Shown: positions 51,363-58,967 of the stretch, piece by piece
Numbering within the stretch: position 1 is the first letter of the stretch
Layout of the letters: each line of letters starts with the position of its first letter
Assembly (NCBI GenBank): GCA_003402345.1
Contig: QFXH01000001.1
Span: 1 to 64,000 of the forward strand
Reading direction: 5' to 3'
Source: Candidatus Nitrotoga sp. MKT
GTDB taxonomy: Bacteria > Pseudomonadota > Gammaproteobacteria > Burkholderiales > Gallionellaceae
Length of the DNA: 64,000 nucleotides
Translations under genes and position numbers: made by a program
Notes under the pieces: generated by a model
The model's input: only the letters and a program-made list of their open reading frames with translations
The model's database searches: none
What the model was told of the DNA's origin: nothing

Positions 51363-52655
51363 TCAATATAGAAGTTTGCCGTTCAAAGTGATCAATGAAC
51401 CAGGTGGCTCGGGACCATCATCTCCCAGTCCCAGCTTAACATTTGAAAACGTAACCATCCTGGAGTTGTGATCGATTGTTATACCATTACAATCGCCAAA
51501 CGAAGCATGCGAACCCGTAAACTCAGACGAATTTGGAAACGTTCCAAACCAGCATGCATGAAAATTCGTGGGATTCCTATAATTAAGGAATAAGACAAGC
51601 GCACCAGGTGCATTAGATAAATTACTGGTATAAACAAAGAGCTCTCTCTCCGAAAGCAAATCAGACCAAGACATAGAAGTCCCATTCAAATTATCTTCCA
51701 CATCATGCGCTTTACTAGCAGGTAAAAAAGTGCCCGGCTCTGAGCTGCTGCCGGTTATTGTGAGTGAACCATTTGCTCCACCTGTGACTCTTCCGGTTGG
51801 CGGTGAAGCAAACACAGATTTTATGATGGTTTTTACGCCATTTAATCCATTGATCGAGTACGACATGGTGCCTGTATTGGCATCGGTGAATGTAAATGTC
51901 ATCGTTCCAACTTGAGTCACAACCTTGTTGGGAGCGTTCCACACGTCAATCGGGTTCGTTCCACCTGTCACAGTGTATAAAGGCCCTGTGCATCCGCTAC
52001 CCGACACGGGGCACGCTGAAGCGACATACCAAGTTGGGCTACCTGCATTGTCATACGTATAGAAGGTGGCGAAAATCATCCCATATTGGTGGGTGACGGC
52101 GGCCCCCCAACCTGGTTGGTCAGCATTGTTCCAAAGGCCTGTTAATGAGCCGTTCAGTGAGCCATTAATTTCGCCTGTACCTCCTCCAATTGGTGGAGAA
52201 GCAAACACAGATTTTGTGATGGTTTTTACGCCATTTGATCCATTGATCGAGTACGACATAGTGCCTGTATTGGCATCGGTGAATGTGAATGCCACTGTTC
52301 CAACTTGAGTCACAACCTTGTTAGGAGCGTTCCACACGTCAATCGGGTTCGTTCCACCTGTCACAGTGTATAAAGGCCCTGTGCATCCGCTACCCGACAC
52401 GGGGCACGCTGACGCAACATACCAAGTTGGATTACCTGCATTGTTATACGTATAGAAGGTGGCGAAAATCATTCCATATTGGTGGGTGATGGCGGCACCC
52501 CAACCTGGTTGATCAGCATTATTCCAAAGGCCCGTTAATGAGCCGTTCAGTGCGGTTGTGTCAGCAACAAAAGCCATTGCTGTGGGAGACGCCATGAAGA
52601 TCGTGAGTGCAACAAGTAAACCATTCAAAGTACGTTTGATCGAGTCAAATTTCAT
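51363..52655 (-). CDS. Secreted protein with two near-identical 131-residue repeats
   Basis: A 430-residue exported protein. ATG 52655 is preferred because GGAGAAG lies just before it; an ATG four codons earlier is also in frame. The signal peptide ends near TAMAFVADT. Two tandem units follow (about residues 37–167 and 168–298), each starting NGSLTGLWNNADQPGWGAA and containing IFATFYTY, WYVASACPVSGSGC and FTFTDANTGTMSYSING. The GLW..PGWG / FATFYTYD..G.PTWY pattern is common in secreted proteins of betaproteobacteria of unknown role. The last about 130 residues are a different domain with a CWFGTFP...GDCNG cysteine pair. The repeats differ by few residues, pointing to recent duplication. Confidence 0.75.
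   Translation of the reverse strand: MKFDSIKRTLNGLLVALTIFMASPTAMAFVADTTALNGSLTGLWNNADQPGWGAAITHQYGMIFATFYTYNNAGNPTWYVASACPVSGSGCTGPLYTVTGGTNPIDVWNAPNKVVTQVGTVAFTFTDANTGTMSYSINGSNGVKTITKSVFASPPIGGGTGEINGSLNGSLTGLWNNADQPGWGAAVTHQYGMIFATFYTYDNAGSPTWYVASACPVSGSGCTGPLYTVTGGTNPIDVWNAPNKVVTQVGTMTFTFTDANTGTMSYSINGLNGVKTIIKSVFASPPTGRVTGGANGSLTITGSSSEPGTFLPASKAHDVEDNLNGTSMSWSDLLSERELFVYTSNLSNAPGALVLFLNYRNPTNFHACWFGTFPNSSEFTGSHASFGDCNGITIDHNSRMVTFSNVKLGLGDDGPEPPGSLITLNGKLLY
51781..52553. repeat. Tandem direct duplication, period 393 bp, inside the secreted-protein gene
   Basis: The segment from 51781 recurs from 52174, an offset of exactly 393 bases (131 codons), and similarity continues for about 370 bases of each copy with only scattered substitutions. 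The period is a multiple of three, so the frame is kept. It corresponds to the two protein repeats. Confidence 0.9.
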
Positions 52656-52667
52656 TTTCTTCTCCAT

Positions 52668-54579: not shown

Positions 54580-57500
54580 ATGCCTGATTTGCATTCAACC
54601 TTGAAATATCCCCAGCAAAAGTCGAACAGTGACTTGCCCAGTACTCCTTCCGCTCACTTTTCCATACTGGCTTTTGCCGTTGCATACACGCTGTTTGTAA
54701 TCTACGGTAGTTTGGTACCGCTTGATTTTCATCCACAAACCTGGGATCAGGCATGGGAGACGTTTCAACATATCAAGCTACTTAACGTCGGAACTCAAGG
54801 ACGTGCCGACTGGGTCGCGAATGGTGTGCTCTACATTCCTGTTGGTTTTCTCACTGCCACCTTATTTACGCGTTCAAAAAGGCATAGCACACTAGTCTTG
54901 GCATTTATCGGTTCGCTTCTATTTTCATTCACTTTGGCTGTGGCAGTTGAATTTTCGCAGCTATTTTTTCCGCCCCGAACAGTATCCATCAACGATGTGG
55001 CTGCCGAATTTATCGGTAGCGCCTTGGGAGCGTTTATTGCAGTGCGTTGGCCAGATCAGTTCAGATTATTTCTCTCCATGCTTATGGGAAATCCAGATCG
55101 TTTGGTTGCCCGTATATTAAAAACATATGCTATTGGTTATGTCGCGTTTAGCCTGTTTCCCTATGATTTCTTGGTATCAGTGCCAGAGCTTAAATGGAAG
55201 CTGGACTCGAATAGTTGGGGTTGGTTGATAGCAATGGAACCCATGCGCGGCAATATCGCGCTTCCTCTTGCTAAGCTGTTTGCAGAAACTTTGGCCGTCG
55301 TGCCCCTGGGATTGATACTCTGTCAATTAACAACTGGGCGACGGTCATGGTCTCCCACACGGTTATTCATCGCTGGCGGGAGTTTTGGGCTGATTATTGA
55401 GATTGCCCAGTTTTTTATCGTTTCCGGCATTAGCCAAGGTCTTTCCGTGCTTACGCGTGCGGCGGGAATCTACCTGGGAGCATTACTTTGGCGTCATCGT
55501 ACGCATTTGCACTTATCACGGCTGGCATCCGAACTCAGGCGATTCGGCTTGCCCGTGGGTATCCTTTATCTGATTGCCTTGGCTGCGGTAAATGGTTGGT
55601 TCGAACATCGCTGGATCGGTAGCGATTCCGCCATGAATACCCTCAATGACATTCATTTTCTCCCTTTCTATTATCATTACTACACCACGGAACAGGCTGC
55701 GTTGTTAAGTTTGACGTCCGTGTGCTTAGTGTATGGATTTATCGGAATTTTGGTTTGGGCATCCTGGAATCCACCTGCGCTGGCAATGTTGTTGGCAACG
55801 TTATTAGCTGGGCTCATGGAAACGAGCAAATTATTCCTGGAAAATCTTCATCCTGACCCTACCAACATTATCTTGGCCGGATTTTCTGCCTGGGCAACAG
55901 CGAAACTGGCCAATCGGCTTACTTCGGCCCCTGTAGCCTCTGCCGAGGTCTCAAAGCGCAATGACTCGCCGGTAGTTGTGGCATCAGACTTCCCCATACC
56001 GAGTCGTCCTTACGGCAGTGAAGCGGAAGCTTCGGCCAGAATGCCAACAATTAATAAGCAGACGTTAGATACAACAACGTCGACATTGCCACTTACTCTG
56101 CTTAAAAAGCCGTCATGGATGGATTACGCCGTTTTGATTGCGGGTCTAGCGTGTGTCAGCTGGGGGGTAACGACCTTTCCTAATCAATTAGCCCTAATTG
56201 GTTTATTTTTCGTTGGATATTCGGTTCTGCTCTGGTACCGGCCACAGTCTCTACTTATTGTTGTTCCGGCCGCCTTGGCGCTTTTCGATTTCGCTCCTTG
56301 GAGTGGGCGCTTCTATTTCGACGAGTTTGATTTTCTTCTCTTGACCAGCATTACCATCGGTTATGTCCGATTACCGGCCGCGCCGCGTCATTCAAAACGT
56401 GATTTACTGTTTCTCTGCCTCGCTATTTTGCTAGGTCTTTCCTATATTATCGGCACTGTCCGGGGCTTGTTGCCTTGGCAGATACCAGAGATAAACGCAT
56501 TCACTAATTACTATAGTCCCTATAACGCACTACGCATTGCCAAGGGAGCACTGTGGGCATTTCTTTTATATGGTCTGTTCGGGCGATTGGCGTCTAATGG
56601 GCAGAATATTCGCAGTCTTTTCGCCCAAGGTATGGTGGTCGGATTGGCTGGAACGATTGCGGTGTTGATCTGGGAGCGATTCACGTTCCCTGGGTTATTC
56701 AATTTCACCGATGTTTATCGGGTGACCGGACTTTTCTCCCAAATGCATACCGGTGGAGCAGATATCGAGACCTTTCTTACACTATCAACCCCATTTTTAG
56801 TGGTGCAACTGTTTGAAAAGCGAAACTGGATAACAAGATTGATCGGCATAGCGTTACTGGTTGGCGCCACCTACGGCGTGATGGTCACTTTTTCGCGTAT
56901 TGGTTACGCTGCTTACGGCATCGCTATGGCGCTTTCCCTGCTGGCGGCAATGGCAACATCAAGTAATCAAGTGCGAATTTGGTCTTTTAAGCGCGGCATA
57001 GCCGCTTTCGCTCTTACGGCGTTGCTGCTCGCGGTGGCAGTACCCATTTTTAAAGGCCCGTTCACGCAGGCCCGTATGTCCCAGGCTGAAGCCGATATGG
57101 GAATACGTTTAGCCCATTGGTCCAACGCTTTGCAGATGCGCGACCCGGGCTGGCCAACGGCATTGCTCGGGATGGGAATTGGGCGTTACCCGGAAACCCA
57201 TTCTTGGCGTAGCAAAGAAAGTTTAGCCGCCACTTATCGGCTAGGCTCTGAAACTGGCAATATTTTTTTACGGCTAGGAATGGGTAGTCCGCTTTATATA
57301 GAGCAATTCATTACAATTGAGCCACACAGTAACTATTTGCTTAGCCTGAATGCCCGTAGCGATCAGCCTAACACCCAAATCACCGTATCGATTTGCGAAA
57401 AATGGCTGCTCACTTCAGCGCGCTGTGCCTTTAAGTTAATTGATGTCACAGGAAACGGTCAGTGGCAATCACTTCAGACTAATCTGCAATCAGATGAAGT

Positions 57501-57990
57501 GGGAAGCGCTCCCTGGTATGCAGCCCGCCCCGTCAAGCTATCGATCTATAATTCCAATACCCAGACCAATGCTGTGATGGATGTGGACAACGTGCGCTTG
57601 CAAGCGGCGAACGGGGACGATCTGTTGACCAACGGGGCGTTTTCGCTGGGGTTGGATAGGTGGTTCTTTACTGTTGACAACGACAGGCCATGGCACATCT
57701 GGAGTCTGCCAATTCAAGTCCAATTTGACCAAGGTTGGTTGGGTTTGGTCGCCCTAAGTCTTTTTGTCGCGCTCGGCTTGTGGCGCGCCGGTCGCAATGC
57801 TTGGCGTGGCGACGCGATGGCTGGTGCGATACTGGCGTCCAGCGTCGGCTTCCTTGTGATTGGAACTTTTGATAGCTTGGTGGACAGTCCACGCATCCTC
57901 ATGCTGTTTTTATTGCTTATTTGGTTCTGTGGACAGGCCACTAGCGGGAGCGCCCCAACCAGAATACATACTCAAAGAGCATTTGATTAA
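54580..57990 (+). CDS. Triple-VanZ / O-antigen-ligase-like fusion membrane protein
   Basis: A 1136-residue polytopic protein. Three VanZ-like units run at about residues 30–155, 175–305 and 325–445; each has membrane helices and an E-x-x-Q/K-x-F motif (VEFSQLFFPPRTVSINDV, IEIAQFFIVSGISQGLS, METSKLFLENLHPDP), the third being most diverged. After a Ser/Thr-rich linker (450–510) comes a Wzy/WaaL-like region (about 515–870) with FDEFDFLLLTS and GMGIGRYPETHSW. A beta-rich segment (about 885–1035, ending VDNVRLQ) looks like a CBM4_9/galactose-binding jelly roll inserted before the HIWSLPIQVQFDQGWLG motif and the last helices. Ligases of this group polymerise or transfer lipid-linked glycans in the periplasm. 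No other polysaccharide genes adjoin. Confidence 0.8.
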   Translation: MPDLHSTLKYPQQKSNSDLPSTPSAHFSILAFAVAYTLFVIYGSLVPLDFHPQTWDQAWETFQHIKLLNVGTQGRADWVANGVLYIPVGFLTATLFTRSKRHSTLVLAFIGSLLFSFTLAVAVEFSQLFFPPRTVSINDVAAEFIGSALGAFIAVRWPDQFRLFLSMLMGNPDRLVARILKTYAIGYVAFSLFPYDFLVSVPELKWKLDSNSWGWLIAMEPMRGNIALPLAKLFAETLAVVPLGLILCQLTTGRRSWSPTRLFIAGGSFGLIIEIAQFFIVSGISQGLSVLTRAAGIYLGALLWRHRTHLHLSRLASELRRFGLPVGILYLIALAAVNGWFEHRWIGSDSAMNTLNDIHFLPFYYHYYTTEQAALLSLTSVCLVYGFIGILVWASWNPPALAMLLATLLAGLMETSKLFLENLHPDPTNIILAGFSAWATAKLANRLTSAPVASAEVSKRNDSPVVVASDFPIPSRPYGSEAEASARMPTINKQTLDTTTSTLPLTLLKKPSWMDYAVLIAGLACVSWGVTTFPNQLALIGLFFVGYSVLLWYRPQSLLIVVPAALALFDFAPWSGRFYFDEFDFLLLTSITIGYVRLPAAPRHSKRDLLFLCLAILLGLSYIIGTVRGLLPWQIPEINAFTNYYSPYNALRIAKGALWAFLLYGLFGRLASNGQNIRSLFAQGMVVGLAGTIAVLIWERFTFPGLFNFTDVYRVTGLFSQMHTGGADIETFLTLSTPFLVVQLFEKRNWITRLIGIALLVGATYGVMVTFSRIGYAAYGIAMALSLLAAMATSSNQVRIWSFKRGIAAFALTALLLAVAVPIFKGPFTQARMSQAEADMGIRLAHWSNALQMRDPGWPTALLGMGIGRYPETHSWRSKESLAATYRLGSETGNIFLRLGMGSPLYIEQFITIEPHSNYLLSLNARSDQPNTQITVSICEKWLLTSARCAFKLIDVTGNGQWQSLQTNLQSDEVGSAPWYAARPVKLSIYNSNTQTNAVMDVDNVRLQAANGDDLLTNGAFSLGLDRWFFTVDNDRPWHIWSLPIQVQFDQGWLGLVALSLFVALGLWRAGRNAWRGDAMAGAILASSVGFLVIGTFDSLVDSPRILMLFLLLIWFCGQATSGSAPTRIHTQRAFD

Positions 57991-58121: not shown

Positions 58122-58526
58122 CTAAAGACAACTGGTTAGGCCTCCCGTGATGGAAGCGCCACTTACAACCTCGGTACTACCAGTGCAGAAGCTATACGGA
58201 CCGCCATTCGGGCCATGGACGCTATACGTATAACTAGCGCCACCAGTGTAGGAATGCGTAATATTGTTTCCAACGATACTCCAAGTTCCAACCTGTTTCG
58301 ATGGATCCACTTTATCCGTAGGACCTTTCTTGTAATCCCAAAGGGCGCCGCCGGATCGATGTTGTTCCTGCCATTTTTCGGTACCCCGCGTGGCACAAAC
58401 TGTGCTTCCTGTGAAAAGGGTTGAAAGCGCACTGCCTGTCACTTTGGCATTTGCGGCGCAACCTGCCATAGCCTCTCCAGAAACCCCTGCGAGTAAAATA
58501 ATGCTTGTAATCATCAGATGCTTCAT
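58122..58526 (-). CDS. Small secreted protein of unknown function
   Basis: A 134-residue protein. ATG 58526 is preferred because AGGAGAA lies nine bases before it; the frame is open 13 codons further upstream. The signal peptide ends SGEAMAG. The mature part has cysteine pairs (AGCAAN, TVC, SFCTG, C-terminal SCL), a WQEQHRSGGALWDYKKGPTD segment and Gly/Ser/Thr-rich beta strands. No named domain is recognised. Confidence 0.7.
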   Translation of the reverse strand: MKHLMITSIILLAGVSGEAMAGCAANAKVTGSALSTLFTGSTVCATRGTEKWQEQHRSGGALWDYKKGPTDKVDPSKQVGTWSIVGNNITHSYTGGASYTYSVHGPNGGPYSFCTGSTEVVSGASITGGLTSCL

Positions 58527-58967
58527 AACCGCTTCTCCTTTTGAGTAAGTTAATGTTGATATCAATTCGTTGCTTGGAAATAAATTTTATTGGTTAGTCC
58601 ATTTATGACCCAAATTCAGCATTTAAGGTGTGCTTTTTGACACACAATCCCAAGGATTGACCGAACTCCTCCGGGAAACACAGCCAATGCAAAGTTGCAA
58701 TAAAATCGGGAATTAGACACTAACAATACGCCATTTCTGGCATAGACGTCGTCACTCTATGATGGAGGAAACACGCACAGCTACCACCCGATTCTGTGCC
58801 AACAGCGTAACATAGAGCAGGCTATCAGTGGCAAGAAAGTGGTCGATTCACATTATCCAATTCGGTACAATCAAACGAATCGATAACACGCAAAATAATC
58901 TGTTGGTCGCACTAATTTTGGCTTTGGCATTAAGAGAGTTTCAGATAAAGGACTGAAAGATGACAAG
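58527..58967. other. Intergenic region, about 440 bases, without a supported gene
   Basis: Divergent region between the secreted protein and the sensor kinase. No hairpin, repeat or coding frame of note was seen. Just before the kinase ATG, ATG 58960 opens a three-codon frame whose TGA overlaps that ATG, which may couple translation. Confidence 0.45.

Follow-up and report, generated by a model that had tools for sequence, protein, structure and literature searches.

The described systems closest to the gene reported here, which occupies positions 54580-57990 on the forward strand of a 64,000-nucleotide stretch of Candidatus Nitrotoga sp. MKT (the window, from contig QFXH01000001.1), are O-antigen ligases, VanZ proteins, carbohydrate-binding jelly-rolls and ligases of exosortase-A (XrtA) systems. 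The O-antigen ligase WaaL (structure 7TPG; CAZy GT121; Pfam Wzy_C, PF04932) has a long periplasmic loop before its last helices and bears Arg-191, Arg-265 and His-313, spaced by 74 and 48 residues according to the available portion of PMC10920833. The available text of Burroughs et al. 2025 (PMC12419801) marks the VanZ-Skillet clade by a short handle helix that separates helix 1 from helix 2, and VanZ-1 by a helix-2 Asn and a helix-4 DxDDxxxN, with an ExxQ in helix 3 allying VanZ-1. It predicts that the VanZ clade acts on lipid-linked sugar head groups and links VanZ-1 to WaaL-like and other exopolysaccharide genes as a general pattern; the word "exosortase" is absent from its main text. Jelly-rolls of the carbohydrate-binding module (CBM) families CBM4 and CBM16, and the CBM of GH10 xylanases (4MGQ), form a further group, and TIGR03097 (PEP_O_lig_1) describes a putative O-glycosylation ligase, exosortase A system-associated, with neither VanZ units nor a jelly-roll.

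The Nitrotoga gene, whose host is a nitrite-oxidising bacterium, joins features of the first three in one open reading frame (ORF) of 1136 amino acids (aa), running from ATG to stop with 0 internal stops: three tandem VanZ units, a linker and a WaaL-like domain split by a jelly-roll. An annotation or assembly artefact was ruled out by the nearest named genes, 93% and 95% identical and found in two Candidatus Nitrotoga metagenome-assembled genomes (MAGs), and by the ratio of amino-acid to synonymous changes (dN/dS), which at 0.02-0.21 in every domain (four pairs) denotes purifying selection, synonymous changes being greatly in excess. The linker (aa 451-510; 55930-56109, forward strand like all parts of the gene given below) evolves faster, with dN/dS of 0.29-0.53 in the same number of pairs, and has a predicted local distance difference test score (pLDDT) below 50 at residues 450-509 of the full AlphaFold2 model.

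Relatives of the protein at E<=1e-10 occur in at least 43 of the 300 Burkholderiales genomes sampled, with at most two candidates scored per genome. Exosortase A (TIGR03109 above cut-off) is present in 42 of these 43 genomes and in 31 of the 257 others (Fisher p 4e-30, kinship not corrected for), so the survey for exosortase genes suggested by the original prediction was strongly positive. That prediction, made from the DNA letters, had also called the architecture unusual; the fusion is confirmed, but it is not unique, recurring in 11 of the 43 genomes.

No description of the fusion or of its exosortase-A link was found in the open-licence literature, nor any of VanZ with exosortase and O-antigen ligase, or with exopolysaccharide and PEP-CTERM. 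Judged by title, no report of a carbohydrate-binding module in the periplasmic loop of an O-antigen ligase was found there either. The available text on Thauera floc-formation mutants contains no such gene (PMC4784049), that of the 2006 PEP-CTERM paper names neither VanZ nor ligase (PMC1569441), and that of a Nitrotoga paper mentions exosortase only for Nitrosospira (PMC9239080).

The ligase domain and its jelly-roll insert

The part of the WaaL-like domain before the insert (aa 511-879; 56110-57216), assigned from the Wzy_C profile, conservation and fold, carries R773 and R843; the part after it (aa 1036-1121; 57685-57942), assigned from motif, conservation and fold, carries H1039. Structural alignment with VIA-align matched model residues 549-1123 to WaaL (7TPG) with Z 25.1 and a root-mean-square deviation of 4.9 over 360 of 403 residues, the next helical match being FtsW at 13.8, which bears out the Wzy/WaaL-like domain of the original prediction. 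Foldseek with the full model ranked 7TPG fourth (E 4.6e-3). The Wzy_C match spans residues 759-866 and profile positions 2-104 of 149, ending where the insert begins, and the remainder of the Wzy_C-type domain resumes after residue 1036. As predicted, the ligase motif is split, with GMGIGRYPE before the insert and PWHIWSLPIQVQFDQGWLG after it.

Sequence searches reached less far. With hmmscan at E<=1, 10 of the 18 aligned members showed Wzy_C; the Nitrotoga protein did not, and an NCBIfam search of it at E<=1 gave VanZ models only. No match at E<=1 was returned by phmmer for the whole protein against PDB sequences, and hmmsearch with A1 gave no WaaL chain, its best match being 4MGQ (E 0.011). 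The host genome (23 contigs, 2.7 Mb) encodes three further Wzy_C proteins.

R843 is conserved in 42 of 42 relatives, R773 in 41 and H1039 in 38. The spacing is 70 residues from R773 to R843 and 196 from R843 to H1039, or about 44 without the insert, and because of this similar spacing and the fold match we equate the three with the WaaL residues. Sequence and model together thus predict R773 and R843 as binders of the undecaprenyl diphosphate (Und-PP) phosphates and H1039 as the acceptor-activating His. H1039 lies two residues before what we take to be the usual HN position of the Wzy_C consensus. Despite the shared fold and residues, the Nitrotoga protein differs from WaaL in its jelly-roll of about 150 residues within the catalytic loop, its three N-terminal VanZ units, its sub-cut-off Wzy_C score and its XrtA rather than O-antigen context.

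The insert itself (aa 880-1035; 57217-57684; assigned from conservation, Foldseek and VIA-align) has a counterpart of comparable size at the same position in all 42 aligned relatives, with C939, C949, Q909, N1018, F1021 and W1028 invariant (42/42; L052_18595 was left out of these residue counts and of the insert profile, A2). Modelled alone from 42 sequences, it reached a pLDDT of 85.2 and a predicted template modelling score (pTM) of 0.81, with at least nine strands. Of the 61 Foldseek matches at E<=0.001, CBM16 (7.9e-6) and CBM4 (2.4e-5) were the best; VIA-align matched 4MGQ, titled PbXyn10C CBM, with Z 11.9 over 126 residues, the next rows standing at about 10; and the sequence profile of the insert matched 4MGQ in hmmsearch at E 2.4e-8. 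The only Pfam match here, CBM_4_9_1, appeared in 4 of 18 members and stayed below its cut-off (best E 0.049). The modelled insert is thus supported as a beta-sandwich jelly-roll of the CBM4/CBM16 kind, as predicted, with the correction that it seems permuted. Its last strand (profile positions 149-165) matches CBM16 residues 3-21, at the chain start, the NGxFxxGxxxW strand standing at the C-terminal end of the insert and at the start in CBM16, and most VIA-align alignments stop at about residue 140-145 of the insert; 4MGQ has the same linear order as the insert. Since the CBM16 matches of this strand are weak (E 0.12-0.2), a circular permutation relative to CBM4/CBM16 is suggestive only.

In Xyn10C-type xylanases, CBM4 modules are inserted into the catalytic domain, according to the available text of two reports (PMC5041131, PMC7848910), and the principle of insertion is therefore not new; what differs here is the membrane glycosyltransferase setting, along with the invariant, disulfide-type Cys pair. 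Across 398 Pseudomonadota genomes, profile A2 found 7 matches in 5 genomes, all inside ligase frames also found with the whole protein, at most 8 candidates being scored per genome so that free-standing copies of the insert could escape. The suggestion of the original prediction that the lectin-like insert could present or select the glycan acceptor stands as a hypothesis.

The three VanZ units

Unit 1 (aa 27-160; 54658-55059) was assigned from Pfam, residue counts and model helices, unit 2 (aa 165-310; 55072-55509) from Pfam, hhalign and residue counts, and unit 3 (aa 312-450; 55513-55929) from hhalign and residue counts. Pfam VanZ recognises two stretches in the Nitrotoga protein (best at residues 34-155, E 4.6e-20) and does not detect the third; the whole protein scores 73 bits against a cut-off of 30.1. 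In a search of the whole genome with the same cut-off, unit 1 scored above it (56.5 bits) and unit 2 below (24.5 bits). Of the domains that the original prediction proposed to search for, VanZ was therefore found above its cut-off, whereas Wzy_C and CBM_4_9 were not.

The third unit is accepted because of profile comparison, the repeated helix pattern and the separate relatives. By hhalign, unit 1 scored 94.3% against unit 2 and 89.3% against unit 3, and fused units 1, 2 and 3 scored 100, 98.2 and 98.3% against their counterparts in separate genes with three VanZ units (3xVanZ). The model repeats one helix order three times (long, short with about 9 residues, three long; residues 25-156, 172-305 and 312-448), and the separate 3xVanZ relatives, of about 490-530 aa or longer, show three VanZ stretches by Pfam. 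Counting against a third unit, the direct comparison of units 2 and 3 is weak in fused proteins (17.1%); in separate 3xVanZ genes it reaches 97.5%. Ordinary ligase helices as an identity for units 2 and 3 were ruled out by hhalign, as two ligase-helix slices scored at most 1.5% against any VanZ unit. Pfam, hhalign and helix pattern hence sustain the three tandem units originally proposed, and on the two points where that proposal had exposed itself to structure prediction, the insert came out as a jelly-roll and units 2 and 3 as something other than ligase helices.

All 28 sequences compared, 15 of them fused and 13 separate with L064 left out, have D77, N81, E124, Q127, R133, S136 and D139 in unit 1. 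Like the VanZ-1 lipocones, the unit thus has the helix-2 Asn (N81) and the helix-3 ExxQ (E124, Q127), together with the short handle helix between its first two long helices. It departs from the published VanZ-1 description in helix 4, which reads SxNDxxxE; DxDDxxxN is found in no unit of the Nitrotoga protein, and the fusion of three tandem units to a split ligase is a further difference. In unit 2 of fused proteins E236 replaces the helix-2 Asn and helix 4 lacks acidic residues, with E236, E274, Q277, S289 and R293 fixed in 15/15, and unit 3 has ExxK instead of ExxQ (15/15) and DPTN (DxTN) in helix 4, with E414, K417, D426 and T428 fixed in 15/15. The site replacements in both units are themselves fixed in 14-15 of the 15 fused proteins, and in separate 3xVanZ genes both units retain Asp pairs. 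From these residue patterns, unit 1 appears the likeliest active VanZ unit, and units 2 and 3 give the impression of re-specialisation, not of decay.

The VanZ units might instead be a structural or regulatory platform without carrier chemistry, a reading that we hold to be rather doubtful. It would account for the canonical helix-4 residues missing from units 2 and 3 in fused proteins, for the six relatives in which the ligase N-terminus retains just two VanZ units, both degenerate, and for the complete lack of 3xVanZ in 18 rows of the ligase tree; it fits poorly with the unit-1 residues kept in 28/28, and with the separate intact 3xVanZ gene that relatives with degenerate fused units have in the same genome.

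Exosortase-A context and proposed role

A relative and XrtA share a contig in 19 genomes and lie 12-58 kb apart in 18 of them. Neighbours of the relatives include EpsB_2, PrsK, the acyl-CoA ligase, decarboxylase and hydrolase of the XrtA system, a Wzx-like transporter and TIGR03097 ligases, which occur in the same XrtA clusters, often as adjacent genes. Given the 7TPG fold, the conservation and spacing of the Arg/Arg/His set, the CBM-like insert, the co-occurrence with and proximity to XrtA, the unit-1 site and the single change on the tree that divides ligases with VanZ from those without, we think it probable that the protein sits in the membrane, faces the periplasm and serves the XrtA exopolysaccharide system as a glycan ligase or polymerase. 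Computation shows its anatomy, conservation, selection and XrtA association; for the ligase domain and VanZ unit 1 we infer catalytic roles: a lipid-linked glycan would enter from the membrane, its diphosphate would be held by R773 and R843, and H1039 would activate the acceptor hydroxyl, while the jelly-roll, anchored by its two ends immediately ahead of H1039, may hold the chain or acceptor in the active site. VanZ unit 1 may act on the same lipid carrier.

Several observations weigh against this assignment. The full AlphaFold2 model (18 sequences) reaches a mean pLDDT of only 69.7 and a pTM of 0.53 and gave no Foldseek match under E 0.001, and Wzy_C in the genome search scores 28.5 bits against a cut-off of 31.7. 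H1039 is replaced by R in L051, L053 and L057 and by Q in L074. One genome with a relative, G137, has no XrtA above cut-off, and in G107 the two lie about 2 Mb apart on one contig. In Nitrotoga itself the fusion gene is on contig C1 and exosortase A on C7, so that the gene is neither in nor near the XrtA cluster, which moreover holds its own TIGR03097-type ligase.

Between polymerase and ligase the chances are roughly equal, with a slight lean to ligase. In the available text of PMC10920833, polymerases of the clan, GT127 excepted, have Asp or Glu where O-antigen ligases have His; the His in 38 of 42 relatives therefore mildly favours a ligase and speaks against a specifically Wzy-type polymerase of the XrtA exopolysaccharide, in which the jelly-roll would retain the growing chain and confer processivity. 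Such a polymerase is nonetheless plausible, if short of favoured: the genes around relatives include a Wzx-like transporter, EpsB_2 and others of the XrtA system, and a separate TIGR03097-type "putative O-glycosylation ligase" stands beside the ligase/VanZ gene in L047, L056, L059, L065, L073 and L087, with L081 as a seventh case, which leaves the polymerase role open for the fusion protein. A further reading is an O-glycosylation-type ligase that would attach glycan to the PEP-CTERM proteins sorted by the exosortase, with the jelly-roll as its glycan-recognising part. The tight XrtA co-occurrence and the WaaL-type His are in keeping with it; we judge it unlikely, the proposed role being already filled by TIGR03097, a model that the Nitrotoga protein does not match.

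A ligase or polymerase of the XrtA exopolysaccharide system, as preferred here, could also be bifunctional: the ligase would release Und-PP, VanZ unit 1 would cleave or exchange the Und-PP head group and the permuted jelly-roll would hold the chain. We regard this extension as quite improbable; if true, VanZ would be an enzyme that recycles the carrier or releases the chain when Gram-negative bacteria assemble exopolysaccharide. More generally, a fusion of VanZ with an Und-PP-dependent transferase, under selection and tied to XrtA, lets the 2025 computational prediction on lipid-linked head groups (PMC12419801) be tested in one protein, and may shed light on the function of the enigmatic VanZ proteins. 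The protein is a candidate for a missing ligase or polymerase of the exosortase-A exopolysaccharide; its candidate accessory parts are the N-terminal VanZ units, the jelly-roll insert and the beta-helix protein encoded nearby in relatives.

Distribution, history and neighbouring genes

Hand-sorted and provisional, the 43 genomes comprise 11 with the fusion, 6 with a ligase and a separate 3xVanZ gene, 8 with 3xVanZ only and 18 with the ligase only. In the phylum sample 5 of the 398 genomes match, four of them from Burkholderiales. G224 has no intact frame of the fusion-gene kind in the ORF set.

On a tree of 41 ligases, the 18 rows without 3xVanZ form one side of a branch (98), and one change sets VanZ-bearing apart from VanZ-less ligases. 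The six ligases with a separate 3xVanZ gene form one side of another branch (100), with two fused rows next to them (92, not starred); they keep two degenerate N-terminal VanZ units, which score 96.5% and 96.7% when compared with separate-gene units 1 and 2. L074 (divergent, with no SR Arg and no His) and L052_18595 (an incomplete copy of the L053 gene) were left out of the tree, and L044 and L050 were dropped as duplicates of L036 and L040. The tree is midpoint-rooted, and its root position is no evidence for direction. The simplest history is that the ligase gained VanZ once and that, later, the fused units of one lineage decayed beside a separate intact 3xVanZ gene.

Other relatives show further arrangements. 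L051, L053 and L057, with Arg for the predicted catalytic His, are fused proteins, and two of their genomes, G045 and G049, also hold a His-bearing second copy. L040:9992-11920 encodes a ligase 75% identical to the Nitrotoga one in a frame without VanZ, and its genome, G045, also has the fused copy L051. In L054, L060, L061, L070, L076 and L079 the 3xVanZ proteins reach about 740-805 aa through an extra C-terminal stretch of about 300 residues, hydrophobic in L079, the one read, and without a Pfam match; these genomes have no jelly-roll ligase at E<=1e-10.

At 11 loci a gene for a right-handed beta-helix protein is the immediate upstream neighbour of the fused gene (in L036 and L083), of the separate VanZ gene (in L047, L064, L073, L079 and L087) or of the ligase (in L049, L058, L063 and L074). 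Its Nitrotoga counterpart (57% identity) is at C1 131871-133163, about 74 kb downstream of the fusion gene; with this gene and the exosortase-A cluster on C7, with its TIGR03097-type ligase, the expectation that partners would be found elsewhere held. In L086 (7053-10625), a jelly-roll ligase of 1190 aa runs into a C-terminal beta-helix-like stretch that stays below cut-off (Pfam E 0.0028; NosD family E 0.0013), its kinship with the neighbouring beta-helix family not being established.

The fusion gene is adjoined at 58122-58565, on the reverse strand, by a gene for a small secreted-looking protein of about 133-147 aa in its family, single-copy in the host genome and with Lipocalin_4, below cut-off, as its best Pfam match. 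The two genes also lie side by side in eight other loci (L035-L040, L046, L078), and are convergent in all but L078. Upstream in the window, also on the reverse strand, positions 51363-52667 encode a protein of 434 aa in which a stretch of about 120 residues is duplicated almost perfectly and for which Pfam gives no match above cut-off.

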